Source: Anthostomella pinea
Lineage: Eukaryota > Ascomycota > Sordariomycetes > Xylariales > Xylariaceae
NCBI GenBank assembly: GCA_963556695.1
Contig: CAUWAG010000006.1
Coordinates: forward strand, 3,286,001-3,350,000
Reading direction: 5' to 3'
Length of the DNA: 64,000 nucleotides
In this document: piece after piece, positions 17,702-58,265 of the stretch
How positions within the stretch are numbered: position 1 is the first letter of the stretch
Layout of the letters: every line of letters begins with the position of its first letter
Notes under the pieces: generated by a model
What the model was told of the DNA's origin: nothing
Databases searched by the model: none
What the model saw: the letters and a program-made list of their open reading frames with translations, nothing else
Made by a program: the position numbers and the translations under genes

Positions 17702-18431
17702 TCTGACGAAGGCCTTCGATATAGTAAAAAGGACGGTACCAGCAGTCTCAGCTATTGATTCGTGTAGTGAAGTAGGAATCGAAACTCCCCATCCGGCTAC
17801 AACATGCTTTAAGTAATGTGAAGTCGTGACGCAAGGACACGCGAGGCAGGTGGGGGATGATGTACCCATGCAGCAAGCCGGTGTAGTATGCAATCCAGCT
17901 TAGTCTCCTATAGGTGTTAACTTGCACGTCAAACTCTCCTACAGACTACAGTCAGGCATCACGGACTAACAATAGTACCCCGAAGCAGAGTAGGTAAGCT
18001 TCCATGGGAGTACACCGTTTCAGTTGGTGCCCTTTTTGGCAGATCTACATTGTCCAGACCGCTCGTGCCTATGCACGTATGCTCTCTTTTCAAACAGCCC
18101 CTGAACAATGGTGCCGACATACAAAGAACTCAGGGCCTTACAAGACAATCTTCCTTGTTCTCGCGACAACAATGACATTACATACAATGCCAGCATCGCA
18201 TTGTGACATGCCAAGATAGCTGCGCACCATGGTTCAAGGAAATGACCCTTTTCCTGCATCAGCAAGCACGATCCTATATAAACCAGAACCCCCTTTTCCG
18301 TTGACTCAAGAATCTCAAACCCCCAATCAAATCGACACCACAGCCAAAGGTAAGCCAACACACACCTCAAACCGAGGAAGAAAAAGAAAGCACAAGGCTT
18401 ACCCACCTACCTACCTACCCATCCACCCCCA
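17702..18431. other. Intergenic promoter region
   Basis: 730 bp between two divergent genes, the amidohydrolase (minus) and the hypothetical gene at 18432 (plus). Apart from the TATA box listed separately and a CCTA/CCAC-rich leader near 18400, nothing is recognised. Confidence 0.5.
18275..18282 (+). promoter_or_regulatory. TATA box upstream of the hypothetical gene at 18432
   Basis: TATATAAA about 150 bp before the start codon, on the coding strand, with a plausible leader between. Good match to the TATA consensus; no experimental support. Confidence 0.45.
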
Positions 18432-19142
18432 ATGGCGTCCTTCGGATCCTACCGCGACCACTTAACCCAGCGCAGCGACCACTACACCGCCGCCGCCGAC
18501 GTCGACTACCTCCTCCTCCAGCTACCCGGCAGCGGCTGGGACGCCTCCGCCATCGCGCGCTTCACGTCCAGCCCCGACGCCCAAGCGGGCGTCGTTCAAG
18601 CGCCCTACCCCGAGGACGCGTACCGCTCTGCGTACGTTCTAGCCGTGGAAACGATCCAGGAGAAGAGCAGTCTGGTGAACGCCGTGAGCGCCGCGAACCC
18701 CGTGCTCCTCCTGGCGCCGTTCAAGGGCGATGGGAACGAGCGACCGCAGCAAGTGCTGCGGGGCCTGGTGGTCAACCTGCTGGAGCGGGTTCTGCCGCTC
18801 CTGGGGCCCGACGCGAGTCCGGACTCCGTGCACGGGTTACTGGCTGGGACGTATGGGGGTTTGTTCTGGGACTACGACGTCTTGGAGATCGAGGAGGGAC
18901 TGCGGGCTCTGGAGGGTTTGGAGCGGTTGGTGGCCCCGGAGGCTGCTGCTGGTAAGCTTTTGTGTCTTGTTGTTGATGTTGATCGCGCTGAAAGCGAGGA
19001 GACGTGGGAGCAGGTAAGGCGGTTTACCAGTGTGCTGGAGAGGCTTTTTGTGACGGGGGGCTTGGGCGATGTGCTGTTCTTTGTGAGCCGGCCGTATGAC
19101 ATTGTTAGATATCATAACAATGATAGGATGATAACATTGTGA
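18432..19142 (+). CDS. Hypothetical protein, 236 residues
   Basis: Single open frame starting MASFGSYRDHLTQRSDHYTA, just downstream of a TATA box and a leader. The protein is acidic and Leu/Ala-rich, with helix-like segments (LRGLVVNLLERVLPLLGPD, LEIEEGLRALEGLERL) and a beta-like stretch (LLCLVVDVDR). No signal peptide or membrane span is evident and I do not recognise a family. The last residues (RYHNNDRMITL) run to within a few bases of the AT-rich repeat at 19145, so the natural C-terminus may have been replaced by repeat-derived sequence. High third-position GC in the body of the frame supports that it is or was coding. Confidence 0.6.
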   Translation: MASFGSYRDHLTQRSDHYTAAADVDYLLLQLPGSGWDASAIARFTSSPDAQAGVVQAPYPEDAYRSAYVLAVETIQEKSSLVNAVSAANPVLLLAPFKGDGNERPQQVLRGLVVNLLERVLPLLGPDASPDSVHGLLAGTYGGLFWDYDVLEIEEGLRALEGLERLVAPEAAAGKLLCLVVDVDRAESEETWEQVRRFTSVLERLFVTGGLGDVLFFVSRPYDIVRYHNNDRMITL

Positions 19143-19144
19143 GA

Positions 19145-19370
19145 CAGGCTGTCAGGTAGCTTTAATGGCTGTATGCGCTAAAGCGCTAGCTCCAGAGCAT
19201 TTATAATAACCCTATAGCCCTATAAACCCTAGCTTCTAATTGGTCCAATTCGGACATGTCTATTATAATTATCTGGTTATTTAAGGGATTATTAGTTATA
19301 TAATAGAAGCTTTTCTTTCAAAAGATATGATTTTTTTTCTTTTAATATAAAATATTTTTAATTTTAATAT
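19145..19370 (+). repeat. Diverged direct repeat, left copy
   Basis: Shares ordered blocks with 22394-22592 in the same orientation: GTYAGGTAG, TAAAGCGYTAG, GCATTTATAATA, TTATCTGGTTATTT, AAGGGATTATT and GGTTATATAAT-like segments. AT-rich throughout. Probably two decayed copies of one transposon end or LTR flanking the block between them. Confidence 0.6.
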
Positions 19371-19773
19371 AAAAGCATTTTACTTTTGATTACAACCTTT
19401 ATAAATGTTTGAATACTTTTAATTACTTTTGATTTGCTTTTTTCATTTTATAAGGTTTAATTACCTTTATCGCTATATATTTTTTATTAATTTATGAACA
19501 TTAATTACTTTCTTTATTATAGTTTCAAATTATTCCTTAAATACGATATTATCTTTCAATATAAAGGCTTTTTGTGCGCGAAAGTTATTCATTGTATCGT
19601 ATTTAACGTTATTATCATATCTTCAATTAACGTTAATGTGTTTTTGTTTAAGTTATTATTAAGCTTTTAAATTATTAAAAGCTTAATGTCAATGACAAGC
19701 AAGCGGCAATTACAAGCGAACGGCAACTTTTTACCAACCTCACAACTGCCATGTCAAATAATTTAATCACAAC
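19371..19773. other. AT-rich spacer
   Basis: Very AT-rich sequence with long T/A runs and no open frame of note, consistent with sequence decayed by repeat-induced mutation. No gene. Confidence 0.5.
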
Positions 19774-19985
19774 TGTCACGGCGAGCGTACTGAGGAGCTG
19801 GGACATGGCCGGCAGCAAGCAGCTATTACTCTATTGACGAGAATATCAAGACTAGAGAGGAAAGGAAGAGAGAGAGAGATAGGTACAGTGGGAGGTTGCC
19901 CCTTTAAGGGGATCCTCTGGTCAGATCCTTCCCCTATTAGGAAGTATCCACTTGTCATGTGGAAAGGTCTGTGCAGGCCGTCACA
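19774..19985 (+). mobile_element. Solo-LTR-like element, copy A
   Basis: 212 bp beginning TGTCACGGCG and ending GGCCGTCACA, so it has TG...CA ends with a short inverted terminal match. It is flanked on both sides by ACAAC, a perfect 5-bp target duplication. Further copies lie near 43.7 and 44.3 kb. Size, ends and duplication fit a solo LTR; a small MITE with short inverted ends is the alternative. It lies just outside the 3' end of the pogo-like transposase. Confidence 0.75.
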
Positions 19986-20008
19986 ACAACACATTCAATT
20001 CAATTCAA

Positions 20009-21844
20009 TCAATCGGATTCCTCTTCTTCAGACGTTTCTATCTTTATTGTACAAGTTTGCGCATTATGGCCAGTATTGCCGCAAATGCCACACCGTCGCT
20101 CACGCGCTGCCTCCCTCCTTAGACGACATTATCTTCATCTATTTCCTGTCTTGCTAGCTCAGTATTATCCTTTATAGCATGAAGACCTATTATATCTTTA
20201 ACAGAAAATATTCTTCTTTTTATTAAATTTTTATCTTTTAGTTTCTGGCATTTACTTAATAAATGATTGGCCTTTTTTAGCTGATGGATCCAAGAATCAA
20301 CCAAAATGACCTTGTGCTTAAGACCATATGTAGCCTTTAAAAATGAGCTCAATGCATCAATTATTGATATAAGTGAGCTTCCCTGGTGATTTTTGACTCG
20401 ATTCTTGATATAAACCAATGAGTTTACCGCTTTGTTAATAGTGATAGGCGTCTTTGAAGTCCAAGTAGTGGGTGGCAGATTGGGGTCTGGCAACGGTGTT
20501 TGTGCGATAGCGACAACATCCAGTTTTGAAATGACACTTTCTGGGTCAAAAGGAACAAGCCCAGTGGCACTGAAACCTGTTCAGATATTTCCTGGCGTCA
20601 TAGCAGTGTTATATGCTTTACAAAATACAGTAAGGAAGTCCTTCTTTGAAACATGGGTTATATGACACTGGATAAGATCCTTAATCATGCAATCATAAGC
20701 TCGTTTGAACGGGCTAAAACAGCTGACATCTAAAGGCTGGAATCTGTATGACAAGTGGACAGGCATATAAAGGATAATGATACCATTGTTCTGACAATAA
20801 TTCTTAAAGACCTGGGAATGGTGGCTTTCGTGGCCATCTAGGATGAGGAGGCGTTTACCAGCGGTTATACACGGTCTGGTATACTTGTCAAAATGCTGAA
20901 TCCATTTCAAACTGATCTTATTTGTAGTCCATCCGTTGTCAGACACGGCCACCTTCCAATCGCGTGGTAATATTGTGTCGCAATACCATGACGCGAGGTG
21001 GGTTTTGCCCTGTAGAATGATGAATGACGAGACCACCCAACCATCAGCATTAATAACAGAGATTATTGTAGACCATTCTCTGTTACCTTGCTGAGCTTGT
21101 CTAGGCCTGCCACGTCTTTTGGTGCTTGTGACGACTGTTGAATACGAGGGTCAATTGATTGAGTGTATTATGATGTTGTGATCAAGCACTGTCTACCTGT
21201 GTACGAGTTTTCAGTACTAGTTTTTGCCCTGGTGGCTGGTCGCAGTCTAGTGCGCTGTCATCCACGTGACATGGTCAGTGCATGGCCCAAATGGTGCGCT
21301 GGTATCTGACAACGACTATGTCAGACCCAATACTGCCCATCATAAACCCAGTCTTATCAAAGGTATAATTGTCCGTGTCTTAGATACCATATTTCGCGAT
21401 TACTGCCGCAACTTAGTGAAACCACACACAATATGCGTCTGGATCTTTGTTCAAAATCCTCTGGTAGTCCATCCTCTGATAAAAACGCGTCCGGAGGCCT
21501 GGTGTGCGTTTAATGAAGTTGCGTGTCCAGTTCTTTTCAACGCGTCTAGTCCCACGTGCCGCCAGCAATTGATTTGTCATATCTTCAACATAACTGTGCC
21601 AAGGTGGAAATGCTCGCACATCCAGGTCAGAAATGAAGGAAAGAATAGCATTCTCTCTAGAAACAGTACGTTTTAAAGAATTAGGCATGATATCACATTG
21701 TGATAGTCGGCCGGCAATTCTTTGAGCCAATGTAGAGATTGATAGGTGGAAAGTTTTAGCAAACTTTCGAACAGAAATATGAGGGTCCCGTTTTTTAGCT
21801 TGGACAGCTAGCTGCATGTCTGATTCATTATAACGCGGTGCCAT
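20009..21844 (-). pseudogene. Degenerate pogo/Fot1-type (Tc1/mariner) transposase
   Basis: Reading leftwards: an N-terminal helix-turn-helix region (MAPRYNESDMQLAVQAKK, ISVRKFAKTFHLSISTLAQR) and a CENP-B-like domain (LLAARGTRRVEKNWTRNFIK), then the DDE core in a different frame (SDNGWTTNKISLKWI, LLILDGHESHHSQVFKNYC, YRFQPLDVSCFSPFKRAYD), a helical C-terminus (LARQEIDEDN) and finally a CCHC zinc knuckle (CGICGNTGHNAQTC) ending at 20009. The core acidic residues are visible in DNGW, DGH and PLDV. Stops at 21413 and 20581 and frame changes between blocks make it non-functional. A Met 21 codons further upstream is also possible. I could not define its inverted ends. Confidence 0.8.
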
Positions 21845-22121
21845 TGTCGTGGGTGGAGGAATACTGGTTAGAAGTTGAAAGTTTGAGAGGTTCATGAAAG
21901 TATCCAACTTGCTTATATGTCCCGCTTGCTTGTGACCTACGTTATATTAACTGATATATTATTAAAATTATAGCAAAGATAATATTTAGCTCGTTCTTAT
22001 GGATATTAAGAATTACTTAAACTAAATAAAACGTTTAAAAGTGTTATAATATTTCAAACTAACGTGTAACTATATATTACTTAATTATTATTTACTTTAT
22101 AATGTGTATTTATTATTATTA

Positions 22122-22247
<126 letters not shown>

Positions 22248-22393
22248 ACTTATAAGTATATTATAGTATGTTATTTAAGCATATTATAACATTTTAAGGT
22301 TATAAAGTTAATAGATTAATTATGCTCATATTTTTAGTTTGAAAACCCCTATTAAATATGGTAATAATAACAAGATAATAATATTAAAAATAA

Positions 22394-22592
22394 GTTGTTA
22401 GGTAGTTTTGGTACCTACATATGTTAAAGCGTTAGTTCTAAGGCATTTATAATAGCTTGATTGGTTCAATTTCGACTTGTTTATTATAGTTATCTGGTTA
22501 TTTTAAGGGATTATTGGTTATATAATTGGGGCTTTTTCTTTAAGAGATTTACATCTTATTTTTTAAATATAGAATATTTTTAAATTTGACAG
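22394..22592 (+). repeat. Diverged direct repeat, right copy
   Basis: Same order and orientation of blocks as 19145-19370 (for example GCATTTATAATAGC, TTATCTGGTTATTT, AAGGGATTATTGG). About 3.2 kb separates the copies; the pogo-like transposase and LTR-like element lie between them. Confidence 0.6.
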
Positions 22593-24874
22593 ATATTGAG
22601 GATTATTTGGTAGGTCCATGTGACATGTCCTTATTATAGAGGATGAGGATGAGGCCTGTCTAGGTTTATCTTAGTCATCTAGCGACGACGGGTTTGATAA
22701 TTTTTGGTACTGACTCTTTTAAATGCTAATAATTTTGGATTGACACACCACACCAGTGGAGTATTTTTCTCGAGGACACTAAGGGTGGCGTGAGATGAGG
22801 CGAGGACTTAATGAAATCCCCTATGCATCTCTGGATATGTTTTAAGATGCTCTGATTAATTTTCCATTTACTGGCAGTGGCACAGATCAAATGAGAGAGC
22901 GCAATTCCAGGAAACGAACGGAACTTTACGAACGGGGACGCAATGGTGGGGTAGACGAGAAAGGAGGTCCTCTCCAGTCTGAAACCCTGAGACAAGCCAC
23001 CGCGAGACGCGACTTCCGATCTCTTCTAGAGATAGCCACTTTCATTCGCAAAAAAACGAACACCCGTTCATGATCAAGTCGTTGAAATATAAAAGAATCG
23101 TGGCTTAAACCTACACCGGAAACCTTATCTAAGCCCGCAAAGCACCGGTGTCAATACCCGGCCTGGGTAGCGGTCCGGGATTGAGTATAATATCAGATTC
23201 AAATAAGACATACCCGAAGAAGAACACACTATTAACATATATACTATTTCATTGTCAACTACTCAAAGCTCGAAGCTGTTTTGGCCTTGACGTAAGCATG
23301 TAAAGTCGTTGCATATCACAGGGCTGTCAAAAAGGGACTTTCAAAGCATCGACTAACGGACGAAGTGGCGGAGACTGCAGGAAAGACATTCAATTCGTCT
23401 GTCTTGTGGTGAGAATAAAATGATACGGGCGGTATAGTCTGGAGAGGCATGCATGGGTGGGTGAATACCCGTCAGAGGGTTGAAGCGACACGAACTCCCT
23501 TCCTGCAAAGGCTAGGTGACGGGACAAGAACCCTCAGGCCGGGAGCTCTTATTGAAGTCAATGGGAAGTTGGGCACGAAAAAGCAGTCAGGAAGAAGTAG
23601 TGAGTTACGGATCTAAATAGGGAAGAGTAGATCTGAGCAAGTGATTAGCAGTGACGTTACTTATGGACTGTAACAAAGACCAGGGAGCACAAGATAAGTT
23701 AGGGAAGAGGTGGACCGACGACCAACAGGCCACGGACTCCACGATCTCACTCTCTGCTCGCGGTATAAAGACCAACGTATATAATTTTTATGCTCTGACT
23801 TCACCGGTTATAGGTACAGCCTTACCTACATATGCCACGATCTACATAACTGTCTACGAAGTACTAATACTGCCAACCCACCAAAGAGCTCGGCCTTCAA
23901 AGGCCCCCAGCACCCATCGCGCTGACTCAAGGGTCTTGGTCCTGGTGACCAGCACTCGAGTCTACGAAGACACCACTAGTACGCCTCCGCCGTTTGCAAA
24001 GACATTCCAGCCCCGAGGCAGCCGCCCGCCGAGTTCCGGTCCAACCCGTGGCAGCTAGCCGAAAGCACCAATAGCCTGCGGAGCCGAGTCTATCAGGCAC
24101 GAGTAACCAGGAGTCACAACAACCCAATGCGCCGGAATATCCCTTGCGCATCTCAACGTAACGTAGTGCACGACTCCTTCGCTTCTTTAGTCATGCGGCG
24201 TGTAGTTCCCGTGCGAAAATTCGGCGAGTATCGGAATAGGGGTGGGGGGGAGGTAGACGTGCTCCGTAGGTCGCCTGACGGGGACGGGGACAGTGCTCGT
24301 GGGTCTTCGGTATCACGCGCGGTAGAGATCTAATCAGACGGGTAAGATGTCAGCTTTAGGTCTGTCTACTCGAAATAGTGCCGATAAAGCTTTGTATGTC
24401 AGCTGTCTCCTCATTCAGGGGATGGAGTACCGCCGCAGGCATTCGTTCGTTTACCACTTTTGCCCGTATGCCCGTCAACCAGGCAAGCTGGAGATGATAA
24501 ATTAGCACCATATAGCACAGCGCAGGACAGTATGGCACTGTGAAAGAAGGAACTCCTTCAGAAGAGATCAAGTCGAGTCGAGTGAAGTCATGTCGAGACA
24601 AAAGAAGACAGGAACTCCCATGTTAGAGGCAATCGCAGGCTCTGGTTTATGCGGCTGGCTACGAGGGGGGGATCGCCCGGCCGTCCTGGCTTAACAGCAT
24701 GGCAGTAAGACCTGCTGACCGGCGGGAGCCAACTCAGATTATCCTGATCATATAGGAGGGCGCACCAATTAAAGACCGGGTGATCTAGGAATCCCAGACA
24801 GACACGTGGTGAAATCAAGATGTGATGAACTGCTACACGTCTATAGAGAATATACCGGCTTGATTTGTCGTCCT

Positions 24875-43674: not shown

Positions 43675-43711
43675 AGTGAACAGTGGCAGGTGAGACGAGA
43701 CGTTGAGGAAT

Positions 43712-43925
43712 TGTGACGGCCTGCACGGACCTTCCCACATGACAAGCCGATACTTCCCAATAAGGGAAGGATCTGACCAGAGGATCCCCTTAAAGGGGCA
43801 ACCTCCTGCTGTACCTATATCTCTCTCTCTCTTCCTTTCCTCTCTAGTCTTGATATTCTCGTCAATAGAGTAATAGCTACTTGCTGCCGGCCATGTCCCA
43901 GCTCTTCAGTACGCTCGCCGTGACA
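43712..43925 (-). mobile_element. Solo-LTR-like element, copy B
   Basis: 214 bp, reverse-complement orientation relative to copy A, with ends TGTGACGGCC and CGCCGTGACA. The flanking pentamers (GGAAT and TAATA) do not match, so no target duplication is visible and the copy may have been rearranged. Confidence 0.7.
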
Positions 43926-44295
43926 TAATATCAAGACTTGTCCATACCAGATCAGAAGCCTTGTCTTCAGATCACCACTGTAAGGAGTTTTACCTCTAGC
44001 GGTGACAGGTGCAGTGTCTCTGAATACCCACCTATCCCAAGACTTTATCATCCCTTTACTATTTCACCTATCATTACCACTGATTCTGTCTAACACACCG
44101 TGACGATGAGTACCATTATCATTCCAGAACGCCAGGATAGTTCTGAAAGGACTGGAAGACCAGTCCAACCTATCTAAACAACCCCCAATACTAATAACCT
44201 TCCCCCAAAGAAAGGAAAGAAGAAACAGAGGCACAAGGCACAAGGGGGTCAGAGCCAGCCAAACACGCGATCAAAGGCCGCTTTGACCCACAGCC

Positions 44296-44509
44296 TGTCA
44301 CGGCGAGCGTACTGAGGAGCTGGGACATGGCCGGCAGAAAGCAGCTATTACTCTATTGACGAGAATATCAAGACTAGAGAGGAAAGGAAGAGAGAGAGAG
44401 AGATAGGTACAGTGGGAGGTTGCCCCTTTAAGGGGATCCTCTGGTCAGATCCTTCCCCTATTGGGAAGTATCCGCTTGTCATGTGGGAAGGTCCGTGCAG
44501 GCCGTCACA
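44296..44509 (+). mobile_element. Solo-LTR-like element, copy C
   Basis: 214 bp, almost identical to copy A, TGTCACGGCG to GGCCGTCACA. It sits exactly at the breakpoint between the LINE 5' remnant and the reverse-transcriptase remnant. No matching 5-bp flanks. Confidence 0.75.
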
Positions 44510-44616
44510 ATCTCTCTCTCTCTTCCTTTCCTCTCTAGTCTTGATATTCTCGTCAATAGAGTAATAGCTGCTTGCTGCAGGCCATGTCCCAGCTCCTCAG
44601 TACGCTCGCTGTGACA
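44510..44616 (-). mobile_element. Solo-LTR-like element, partial inverted copy D
   Basis: About 107 bp, the reverse complement of the first half of the LTR-like unit, directly abutting copy C. Together C and D can form a stem of about 100 bp; copies B and C form a larger inverted pair around 44.1 kb. Confidence 0.7.
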
Positions 44617-46201
44617 GGAGCCAGCACTACGCTGGCTGAGGGTTTGGATTGATCGGAAATTCACCCTCAAGCGACATGTTCAAGAACGTGCTGGCAAAAT
44701 CATGCAGCTATCCTGGCATATACGAAACCTAGCCAACACCAACTACGGACCCCCGGCGTCCGGATTACGAAAGGCTGTGATCACCTGCGTCCTTCCCACA
44801 GCGCTATACGGGTCAGAAGTCTATTACGATGGACAGAAGTAGTCGACACACAACCAGTCACAGGCAGGCAAGCCTGAAGTTAGTGCTGGTATAAGATGGC
44901 ATATCAATATCTTGCAGAGATCTATCACGATAGCAGCACGGGCGGCACTGCCATGCTGGCGGACCACACTGAATAACGTCATTTTCAGGGACGCTGGCCT
45001 CCTTACGGCAGAGGTGGCGCTTAATGCAGCGCTATGGCGGTTTGTTTTCAGGCTACGTACTGTAGACAAGAAGTATCTCTTTGTTAAGCGAATCCAACTC
45101 CCAGCGATTATACGGGCCATGGTGCAGGCGGCTTTTAACGCCTTAAAACTAAATTACAGCTAGCAGCTCGCCTGTTATACCCTGTATAGCGGCCCTTATT
45201 AGTGTTACTGCGCTTCATACCTGGCTGCAGGATCGATCTAACCAGAGGTATTGATAAGGAGCAGGCTGTCAAGGACTTCAAGACCTGGTTTGAGGCTCTG
45301 CCACTATATGACGTGGTGGTCTTTTCAGACGGCTTGAAGGAACGGATACACGTCGGATACGGCTATGCAATCTACCAGGGCGGGCGCCTGCTCGCCACTG
45401 GCAAGGGTCATCTAGACCCGTGTTCTATCGTGTTTGATGCAGAAGTGCTCAGAGCCTGGAAGGGACTTCAGCACGTGGTCAAGTCACCCCCAGAGCTCAG
45501 TCAGCGCCGGATCTGGGTATGTGTGGACAACATAGGAGCGATCTGGGGGCTCTGCGGCAATGCCGCGGTGTCCTACCAATGGGCTTACCTGAAGTTCCAT
45601 GCTGAGGCTGAAGTCCGTAATATTAATGTCAAGTGGTGCCCTGGGCACTGCGCTATTGAGGGCAATGAACTGGCAGACAAGCTGGCTAAGGCCGGCTCTA
45701 AGCTCTCTAATACTGACTCTGACTGCACACCAACAGCGTACGGCATCAAAGCAGAGGCGAGACTTAAGCTCGAAGTCTCGCGCGACATATGGTGGACCAA
45801 GGCCCAGACCAAGCTATCGGCCCGCTATAAGTACTAGAACCTGAAGTACAAACTGTGCTATTACGAGGAATTGTAGGTACTCAACAGGCCGTTATTACAC
45901 CGCTTCCTTGCTGTCTGCTCAGGGCACGGCGACTTCCCTTGGTATCATGTCAAGTTCAAACATCAGGACGCCGTCCTTGACTGCTCGTGCAGCCAGAGCA
46001 AAACTCTGACGCACTTCATCCACTGTCGGAAGACTCTGGCACGGTACATAGTCTGGCCAAGGGCCCCGGCATCCCGGCCGGAGCTCGGAGCCAGGCTCGA
46101 AGCCAGGCTCGAGTATCTAGACGAACTCATGACTTCCCCACAGGAGTACATGGACCTACTCGTGGGTACTGACTTCTATGGCAGCATCTGCCCTCCTCAC
46201 T

Positions 46202-46721: not shown

Positions 46722-47048
46722 TTACGGTTCGGGTTTGCAGTTGGTGCCTTCTATGACGTCCTCTATGAAAGTTGCTCCGTATGTAACAAGCACCTCTCGG
46801 ATGGCATCGGTAGTGCGGATGTTCTTGTAGAGTTTGTTTGTTTGTTTTGTATTCAACGTGGGGGGTAGCTCCATGTTCTTGTAGAGGTACCCAATAAGAG
46901 CTGCTACGTGGCCAATACTTTCCTTGTAGAGCTTGAACCAATCAAGGACGTACATTAACTTCTGTTTGCCCATTTTCATGAGATCGAATATCGCGTACGT
47001 GTCGGCAAGGACGTAAAGCTTGGCGTGCAAGAAACACACCCGTGAAAT
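46722..47048 (-). pseudogene. BTB/POZ-domain gene, C-terminal exon
   Basis: Reads ISRVCFLHAKLYVLADTYAI, FDLMKMGKQKLMYVLD and later RTTDAIREVLVTYGATF. The LHAKLYVLADTYAI block followed by L-K--A--KL is the second half of the BTB domain in the large fungal BTB family, usually followed by the I-E-VLV-Y helix seen here. An acceptor at 47049-47050 (CTGAAG) precedes it, but no upstream exon with the first half of the BTB domain was found within 1 kb, so the gene is probably truncated. A three-exon gene with an unrecognised first exon cannot be excluded. Confidence 0.5.
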
Positions 47049-47885
47049 CTTCAGCGGGTGACTGTTGGGAACGGTCCATGTCCAGCCTCCAATTGTCCAG
47101 CGAATCGAACTTGCCAAACGCCCACTATCTGGCGTACCACCATCACGATTCCTTTCCAGCAAGGCACCAGCGAGGCACTGGCAATCAACCACCGCCCGCA
47201 CCTTCTCCACCCTCAACCTCATCCTCATTGTCGTTGTCACCGGAAGGCGACGGGAAGGTCGCGCAAATCGCCTCTCGGTTCTAAGATCCATCAGTACATG
47301 CTTCGCAGGTGCTTCACTAGGGGGTAGCGGCTACCTACCACGTAGGTTTAGGACTCGCTAAAAGCCTCAAAAGCACGAGCAAGGCGCTCATTGCTTGCAG
47401 CCACAGCCTCATTCGCTCGAGCGTTCTGCTCGAGTGCGAGGAGCCATGGCCAACCATCCGCCTCCCAACAACGTTTTGGGCTCTCCATGCTGATGATAAG
47501 TCTACTTCTCAGCTTATACCTTGTCCCAACTCACTGCTAGTTCTCTCGGTGTCGCATCAAACGATGAAGGGCTCGCTCTCGGATTACCAAGAGTCCCGCG
47601 TTCCATAAAGACGCTTGTCGTGGACTTCGAAGACATACATGAGCTGGTTAGGTCTGACTGCTACGCTGTGGTCATCCGCGACTACCTTAAAGCGTGCGTG
47701 TGTGTGTTTGTGGGTGTTTTTCACTATATGTCCGTTGCCGCAGGTGAAGCTTGCAACAAGTGGTGATCCATTGCGTCGATTTGCTTGCCAACGGTCGTTA
47801 GTGTGCCATGCGAACTCGCCGTATTGGTATAAGTGATGGGGAGGAGGCGTAAAGGGGCAGCTAAGGTGCAGGTGCTAAAACCGGA
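47049..47885. other. Intergenic, no gene seen
   Basis: Between the BTB exon and the DUF3716-like gene. A plus-strand open frame at 47521-47766 has no recognisable domain. Nothing else. Confidence 0.4.
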
Positions 47886-48829: not shown

Positions 48830-48842
48830 ATTGTAAGACTGG
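48830..48842 (+). repeat. Target-site duplication of the minus-strand SINE (left)
   Basis: ATTGTAAGACTGG, identical to 49398-49410 on the other side of the element. Confidence 0.9.
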
Positions 48843-49397
48843 TTGATTGATTGATTGTATTTATCGTGGGTGCAGTCCCTCAACAGGGCAAACCACGCCT
48901 CCCAGAGCCATTGCATCGCAAGGTTGTAAAGGTGTCAGTCTAGATATATTCAGATCCACGCATGAGCCTATCCTCGCTGTAGCGGTACCAATCTGGAGTG
49001 TCCAGATAGTTTTAGTCAATATCCAAGCACAATTCTGTCAAAAAAACCTCTTATCTAGTGACAAAACGACCCAGTGGACCTCAGTCCTCTGGTGTACACA
49101 TTGTTCCAGTAGCCGTTCGATATATGTCGCATTGGTGGGTGAAATAGGTATTTATTATTTACTAATGAGGGAAATCATAAGGGGAAAAACTTTACAAGAA
49201 TGGGTGTTATAGAGACAAGTTGTTTGGCTATCAGGCTCTGCGATAATAAGGCCTTTTTATTATCGTGTGCTGGTTGTCAACTCGCACAAGCTGGGTCAGA
49301 AGGGGGCTGTAGCAGGATTCGAACCCACTTGTTCTCGTCGCCCACCGCACAAACGAGACCACAACCAGGCGCATTTGACCATTGCGCCATATGGCCC
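48843..49397 (-). mobile_element. tRNA-derived SINE, copy 1
   Basis: 555 bp. Read on the minus strand it begins GGGCCATATGGCGCAATGGT (acceptor and D-arm, A-box-like TGGCGCAATGG) and has a canonical B box GGTTCGAATCC about 70 bp in. The D-arm and long variable arm resemble a class II tRNA, most like tRNA-Leu. A unique body of about 440 bp follows, ending ...CACCCACGATAAATACAATCAATCAATCAA, i.e. an AATC-repeat tail. Flanked by a perfect 13-bp target duplication. The second copy at 57697-58252 is about 95% identical by eye. No coding capacity. Confidence 0.9.
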
Positions 49398-49410
49398 ATT
49401 GTAAGACTGG
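49398..49410 (+). repeat. Target-site duplication of the minus-strand SINE (right)
   Basis: ATTGTAAGACTGG, identical to 48830-48842. Confidence 0.9.
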
Positions 49411-57683: not shown

Positions 57684-57696
57684 ATCTCTGTATTGG
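57684..57696 (+). repeat. Target-site duplication of the plus-strand SINE (left)
   Basis: ATCTCTGTATTGG, identical to 58253-58265. Confidence 0.9.
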
Positions 57697-58252
57697 GCCG
57701 TATGGCGCAATGGTCAAATGCGCCTGGTTGTGTTCTCGTTTGTGCGGTGGGCGACGAGAACAAGTGGGTTCGAATCTTGCTATGGCCTCCTTCTGACCCA
57801 GCTTGTGCGAGTCGACAACCAGCACATGACAATAAAGAGGCCCCATTATCGCAGAGCCTGATAGCCAAGCAGCTTGTCTCCATAACACCTATTCCTGTAA
57901 AGTTTTTCCTCTTATGGTTTCCCTCATTAATAGATAACAAATACCTATTTCACCCACTAATGCGACATATATCGAACGGCTACTGGAACAATATGTACAC
58001 CAGAGGACTGAGGTCCACTGGGTCGTTTTGTCACTAGATAAGAGGTTTTTTTGACAGAATTGTGCTTAGATATTGACTAAAACTATCTGGACACTCCAGA
58101 TTGGTATCGCTACAGCGAGGATAGGCTCGTGCGTGGATCTGAATATATCTAGACTGACACCTCTACAACCTTGCGATGCAATGGCTCTGGGAGGCGTGGT
58201 TTGCCCTGTTGAGGGACTGCACCCACGATAAATACAATCAATCAATCAATCA
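57697..58252 (+). mobile_element. tRNA-derived SINE, copy 2
   Basis: 556 bp, same family as 48843-49397. Head GCCGTATGGCGCAATGGTCA, B box GGTTCGAATCT (one change from copy 1), acceptor-stem partner ATGGCCT downstream of the T-arm, so the 3' half of the tRNA fold is still recognisable. The tail is four to five AATC units. Perfect 13-bp target duplication on both sides. The slightly mutated B box may reduce pol III transcription of this copy. Confidence 0.9.
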
Positions 58253-58265
58253 ATCTCTGTATTGG
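58253..58265 (+). repeat. Target-site duplication of the plus-strand SINE (right)
   Basis: ATCTCTGTATTGG, identical to 57684-57696. Confidence 0.9.

Follow-up and report, generated by a model that had tools for sequence, protein, structure and literature searches.

SINEs that appear to depend on a LINE of the same genome have been described in a few fungi, and the source passages we drew on tabulate two fungal SINE/LINE pairs (PMC3747384) and give one more (PMC5063351). Closest to the case presented here is the Mg-SINE/MGL (MGR583) pair of Magnaporthe, in which a tRNA-derived SINE of ~0.5 kb carries a 3' end like that of a LINE from the same genome (PMC2104539), a pair also tabulated in PMC3747384. 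In Blumeria, the tRNA SINE SINE2-1_BG is paired with a fungal Tad1 LINE, Tad1-24_BG (PMC3747384), and in A. fumigatus the tRNA-related AfuSINE2-1a resembles, at its 3' end, the 3' UTR of a Tad1/I-type LINE, I-1_AF, and terminates in a simple repeat (PMC5063351). Fungal SINEs of 472 bp (Mg-SINE), 700 bp (Egr1) and 800 bp (mgsr1) are cited in the latter source (PMC5063351), so that the initial annotation's view of the present element as longer than most was not borne out; AfuSINE2-1a is shorter, with positions up to 335 named (PMC5063351). For strains of Neoarthrinium moseri, 33-35 stretches (about 2.3 kb) are listed as masked SINE sequence (PMC12369201). A search of open-licence titles and abstracts returned no SINE of Xylariales or Amphisphaeriales, which does not establish absence from print.

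We analysed a window of 64,000 nucleotides from Anthostomella pinea (contig CAUWAG010000006.1, positions 3,286,001 to 3,350,000, forward strand), which holds two full-length copies of a SINE family with a tRNA-like head, both with an AATC tail (T-type): copy 1 on the minus strand (48843..49397) and copy 2 on the plus strand (57697..58252, 556 bp). Re-reading of the sequence confirmed the initial description of both copies as regards coordinates and orientation, the tRNA-like head with its B box, the tail of AATC repeats and the two target duplications. Copy 2 is flanked perfectly by ATCTCTGTATTGG (57684..57696 on the 5' side, 58253..58265 on the 3' side). Its tRNA-like head with a long variable arm (57696..57790; ARAGORN His-GTG, Rfam tRNA 24.5 bits), whose base 1 (57696) can also be counted as part of the duplication, contains an A box TGGCGCAATGG at 57703..57713 and a B box GGTTCGAATC at 57767..57776, and is followed by a SINE-specific body of ~317 nt (57791..58106) and by a LINE-related 3' region (58107..58252), with the (AATC)n tail starting at 58236. 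Copy 1 is likewise flanked by a perfect duplication, CCAGTCTTACAAT (reverse complement of ATTGTAAGACTGG; 5' at 49398..49410, 3' at 48830..48842, both minus strand), for which a 14-bp reading is also possible; its head, called by ARAGORN, lies at 49302..49396 and its LINE-related 3' region with tail, placed by alignment to copy 2, at 48843..48986, a match to the LINE being found at 48840-48937. No open reading frame of at least 150 aa, the size class examined, was listed over either copy.

In the whole genome (53.7 Mb, 16 contigs), a DNA search listed at least 41 matches, 40 of the 852 first-look candidates being scored. Genomic matches numbered 264 for a 23-base pattern from the head (up to 3 mismatches) and 284 for a 30-base pattern from the body, against 0 for either pattern when reversed as a control; these are pattern matches rather than inspected copies, and the family is present at roughly 260 to 280 genomic places. 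Thirty T-type copies were fetched by similarity to copy 2, and are thus among the most query-like, a non-random sample. Their 3' variant was CCTGTTGAGG in 15, CCTATGGAGG in 10 and neither in 5, all being called T-type, and one of them (L023) ended in an A-rich tail, not AATC. In 28, an individual target duplication of 10-16 bp flanked the copy, whereas duplications of at least 10 bp arose by chance in 4 of 870 mismatched flank pairs; the duplication was absent in L004 and L016. Counting the L-type subfamily described below, 45 copies with distinct duplications were found beyond the window pair (26 T-type, and 16 full-length plus 3 truncated L-type). Among 42 copies (L029 and L014, with a 14-bp duplication each, and L004 and L016, with none, were left out), the base left of the duplication was C in ~24 and A in 1 (binomial test run), a mild target-site preference. 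The family thus has the features of a SINE2 element, i.e., a length of ~556 bp, an AATC or AAAC tail and dispersed copies with differing duplications; a search of a plasmid collection gave no match.

Of the 30 copies compared, the two in the window are most similar to each other (94.9%), and only 8.3 kb separates them, which could speak for a segmental duplication, or for a MITE-like repeat copied at the DNA level without reverse transcription. Against this stand the individual duplications (28/30) and the confinement of the similarity to the element itself, 48836-49398 and 57694-58256 being 95% complementary in an alignment of 563 nt beyond which the resemblance stops. Moreover, tail lengths vary, the three truncated copies examined are cut on the 5' side, and no inverted repeat was seen by eye at the SINE ends. 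DNA-level copying is thus extremely improbable, and the earlier reading of the pair as independent insertions is upheld by a separate duplication at each copy.

Since their duplications differ, a joint segmental copy of copies 1 and 2 is excluded. They have 26 differences from the consensus in common, out of 36 and 44, respectively, while the next best pair shares 10, and 76 of the 80 changes of the pair are C to T or G to A. CpA is the usual target of RIP. The change rates (CA 0.145, CG 0.167, CT 0.154, CC 0.071) did not favour CpA, and classical RIP was rejected as the cause of this decay. The changes in common could stem from hypermutation that struck both linked repeats, from gene conversion, or from one mutated source of both copies.

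Over the whole window, ARAGORN reported both SINE heads as 95-nt tRNAs with anticodon GTG and nothing else, and it drew the head of the consensus with a long variable arm; its His call is based on a poor anticodon stem. The score of the copy 2 head lies under the Rfam family cut-off of 29, at which the tRNA model had no match anywhere in the window, and we therefore regard the head as degenerate and tRNA-derived rather than as a tRNA gene. The promoter-like boxes are well kept, the A box TGGCGCAATGG being exact in 27/30 T-type and 16/16 L-type copies and the B box GGTTCGANNC present in 25/30 and 16/16, respectively; ARAGORN called a tRNA in 26/30 T-type copies. As to the parent tRNA, two tRNA-His patterns had 0 matches in the genome, and a Leu/Ser pattern occurred at three genomic places, whose alignment to the SINE head revealed no clear parent. 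When introns were allowed, ARAGORN called Val, Thr and Leu(TAA) at these three places, and it called no tRNA there when they were not; the Leu(TAA) place and the SINE head have the T-arm GGTTCGAATCCTGC in common.

The candidate partner was sought among reverse transcriptase (RT) matches in the genome (474 candidates, of which 150 were scored), and 24 of the 150 lay in frames open for 1254-1256 aa without a stop. In L061, the one open LINE frame out of the 24 that was read whole, ORF2 matched Pfam Exo_endo_phos_2 (an APE-type endonuclease), RVT_1 and RNase_H, with YADD in the RT translation, and was preceded by a 547-aa open frame (ORF1), of which a 507-aa part had no Pfam match. Judged by its domains, the LINE fits the Tad1-clade layout, with APE endonuclease, RT and RNase H in ORF2 behind ORF1. 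Its named best protein matches are ascomycete elements, and the best outside match of ORF2 (67% over 68% of its length) is from Neoarthrinium moseri (Amphisphaeriales, Xylariomycetidae). The ITS1 of the genome carries a repeated CTACCCTGTAG, which we take to be a repeat familiar from Xylariales. The LINE 3'-end pattern (up to 1 mismatch) had 530 genomic matches. Duplications of 14-18 bp flanked 5'-truncated LINE copies in 3 of 9 rows; the other 6 had no true duplication, one match falling inside AATC repeats and L088 and L089 being internal parts of longer matches, and a duplication looked for in the L061 flanks was not found. Within the window, a decayed relative of the LINE lies at 44624..46032 (+), in pieces with 32-54% protein identity and with an RNase H match slightly below the Pfam cut-off.

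Other repeats lie in the same window. A ~220-bp repeat, complete or partial and in both inverted and direct orientation, occurs at 43705-44618 and 19773-19986, as well as at several SINE or LINE loci elsewhere (L007, L022, L023, L024, L089, L090); one copy has TGTGACGG...CCGTGACA ends, and it is perhaps a solo LTR or a MITE. The stretch 18000-24000 is AT-rich (GC 0.38-0.47 in 2-kb steps, vs 0.49-0.62 in the rest of the window) and includes a long TTA array at 22110-22246.

The SINE and this LINE are alike at their 3' ends. The terminal ~146 nt of the SINE are 74-84% identical to the LINE 3' end, and SINE consensus 412-557, tail included, matches L061 directly behind ORF2 at 77%. SINE-like 3' sequence was present in all 20 stretches chosen downstream of other RT matches, 19 of them being LINE 3' ends (74-78%) and the remaining one, L073, a SINE inserted in a LINE. 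In addition, 18 loci chosen from exact matches of ACGTTAAATACAATCAATC proved to be LINE 3' ends with AATC tails, 77-84% identical to the SINE. The SINE 3' end had no such match in L062 and L063, two different RT loci that contain A-runs and were taken as LINEs on their RT match alone. The LINE-driven transposition proposed in the initial annotation is thereby supported at the sequence level, the SINE 3' ~146 nt matching the 3' end of this abundant LINE of the same genome.

This LINE-related 3' ~146 nt might also suggest that the 555-bp unit derives from the LINE by internal deletion, as a non-autonomous element, and is not a SINE that has captured a LINE tail. Such an origin is very unlikely in view of the tRNA-like head with its A and B boxes and of the 317-nt body, for which a comparison with the L104 + L061 stretch (with ~2.1 kb upstream of the ORF1 frame, in one copy, as the LINE 5' side) and with 34 other loci, under three scorings, gave no significant match (best E 2.8). 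Similarly, the body was not found to be part of any larger autonomous element, the LINE sharing the 3' ~146 nt only, as far as searched. For 12 chosen 3' ends (7 LINE, 5 SINE), a common fold of 26 pairs had 98.4% of cells paired, a percentage reached by 12 of 500 shuffles; its covariation score was reached by 11/500 shuffles, and only 2 pairs changed on both sides, a number that 178/500 shuffles also reached. A 5-bp CGTGG/CCACG stem was invariant. A shared 3' RNA structure of SINE and LINE is thus plausible but, with little covariation, weakly supported.

SINE copies were found inside LINE copies at L073, L110 and L119, and at L070 a LINE tail adjoins a cut SINE head; the two families thus nest in each other.

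A second, younger group of SINEs bears an end that is the LINE's own. The defining L-type pattern, in which SINE-side CAATGG is joined to LINE-side GCACTACTGAGG, had 99 genomic matches, 87 of them exact; among the 12 one-mismatch matches, 4 differed at SINE/LINE-distinguishing bases and one (L124) was a LINE end. The 20 L-type loci examined (19 fetched, plus L073) comprised 16 full-length SINEs, 3 5'-truncated SINEs and the LINE L124, which was not counted as a SINE. The 16 full-length copies were 99.0% alike over the first 500 alignment columns, identical in columns 500-545 and 0-1.7% away from their own consensus, vs 94.1% alike and 1.5-8.1% from their own consensus for T-type copies (n = 28, L004 and L016 being left out of this alignment). 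Between the two groups, bodies were 94.1% alike and columns 500-545 only 79.7%. A 57-nt end, start of the tail included, was present in 19/19 L-type SINE loci and identical in the LINE loci L064, L065, L074 and L075; letter for letter, it occurred in no other LINE locus among the 41 checked (L061-L101, of which L073 is a SINE). Since the first 22 nt of this end are common to SINE and LINE, the replaced part corresponds to the last ~35 nt plus the tail. Thus, on alignment, the L-type end looks like a recent replacement of the SINE 3' end by the LINE's own.

Further differences point to the history of this subfamily. Body changes at consensus positions 211, 310 and 394 were present in 16/16 L-type and 0/28 T-type copies, which makes one founder likely; this leaves three adjacent differences at 456-458 unexplained. 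The body contains a run of 5 T, which might stop Pol III, and in 15 of the 16 L-type copies one T-run was shortened from 5 to 4, a change that might ease read-through. All 16 full-length L-type copies had duplications of 10-16 bp, within 1 nt of the element in 14 and 6 or 10 nt away from it in 2. The three truncated copies were cut at SINE position 243, 321 or 386 and had duplications of 14-15 bp. Truncation on the 5' side is a trace of target-primed reverse transcription. The shortest case seen lies in the window itself (46833..46872, minus strand): a 40-bp insertion, one base off the common 3' end, consisting of the 5'-truncated end shared by LINE and L-type SINE with an (AAAC)n tail, and flanked by a perfect 14-bp duplication CTCTACAAGAACAT (46873-46886 and 46819-46832). 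It may stem from a LINE or an L-type SINE, because both end alike. The insertion with its duplications (46819-46886) falls inside a listed open reading frame, 46722-47291 (minus).

How the L-type SINE came by its new end admits of two routes. DNA-level gene conversion or recombination between SINE and LINE could have been helped by the SINEs lying inside LINEs (L073, L110, L119), which bring both sequences together, and a switch within or beside the 22-nt common stretch fits this route as well as template switching during reverse transcription. However, the exchange extends as far as the tail, which is what one expects of template switching that proceeds from the end at which the LINE primes, whereas conversion tracts would more often be internal. 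We therefore consider the DNA-level route unlikely, though far from negligible, and template switching as the most likely origin of the L-type end.

Two tail types, (AATC)n and (AAAC)n, occur on both partners, one or the other closing the LINE ends examined and nearly all SINEs examined. ACGTTAAATACAATCAATC had at least 100 exact genomic matches and 260 in total with one mismatch, the latter including SINEs because their GATAAATA differs from it by one base. Identity to L061 was compared for 38 loci of unequal length, belonging to two sets chosen differently (by RT matches and by tail pattern). It averaged 98.2% in AAAC copies with an L061-like end (9 loci), 92.9% in AAAC copies with one extra C (10 rows, including the SINE L073), 94.9% in AATC copies sharing that extra-C end (n = 8) and 90.7% in AATC copies with GAGCGATCC (n = 8), with 94-97% in 3 other loci. 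Distance from L061 is thus not consistently greater in AATC LINE copies than in AAAC ones; the 98.2% group together with the young SINEs indicate, without proving it, that AAAC is the newer tail. Concerning the older SINE end, a hybrid pattern setting the T-type end (GCCCTGTTGAGG...GATAAATA) against LINE bodies had 57 genomic matches, of which 56 were SINE-like and the remaining one, LINE-like, had an end close to that of the LINE itself, and this genome search found no LINE donor of the T-type end.

Taken together, these comparisons make it highly probable that the element is a tRNA-headed SINE, present in at least two generations, which a single abundant LINE of its own genome has mobilised in trans. 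The SINE would most likely be transcribed by RNA polymerase III from its A and B boxes; the ORF2 protein of the LINE would recognise the 3' end common to both RNAs, its APE-type endonuclease would nick the target, reverse transcription would start at the simple-repeat tail, and insertion would leave duplications of ~13-15 bp. We infer the steps of recognition, nicking and priming from the 3' ends that both elements have in common, from their tails and duplications, and from truncation on the 5' side. One generation, with the AATC tail, includes both window copies, and the younger one would have had its terminal segment replaced by the LINE's 3' end with its AAAC tail, most likely through a template switch during reverse transcription. 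More tentatively, and with somewhat less than even confidence, we propose that the SINE persists by copying the evolving 3' end of its LINE, in a manner of "updating its key": the LINE end and tail would have gone from AATC to AAAC, one SINE RNA would have gained the new terminal ~35 nt and tail, with a switch point probably at the 22-nt stretch common to both elements, and this chimera would have seeded the young subfamily while the AATC generation lagged.

One assembly thus holds both partners, with long open LINE frames, young SINEs, two tail generations and a 40-bp insertion, and this co-occurrence makes what a fungal LINE recognises at an RNA 3' end directly testable. It also provides a natural experiment on the way a SINE keeps up with its LINE. 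Compared by description, the present pair differs from Mg-SINE/MGL by its two tail generations in both partners and its recent end replacement, and the passages of PMC3747384 on SINE2-1_BG/Tad1-24_BG, also compared by description, do not mention subfamilies. In A. fumigatus most LINE-like sequences are called not intact (PMC5063351), whereas here long open frames contain 24 of the 150 scored RT matches, and one SINE subfamily is 0-1.7% from its consensus. Foxy of Fusarium oxysporum is another fungal SINE family comparable by description, with ~160 copies, and is called active (PMC5063351). Jumps of a fungal LINE RT between LINE, SINE and other RNAs have been inferred from MINE and WEIRD-MgSINE-MGL in PMC2104539; there the LINE/SINE chimera is single-copy, whereas here a multi-copy subfamily carries such a chimera-like end. 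SINE subfamilies differing in their tail repeat are also described for Squam3, a CORE-SINE of scaled reptiles, which differs in being a vertebrate element with an L2-related 3' end and few target duplications (PMC7983390). As far as can be told, the A. pinea SINE is thus a new family of an already known kind, in an unusually clear case of SINE-LINE co-evolution, and the end replacement is its most interesting feature.
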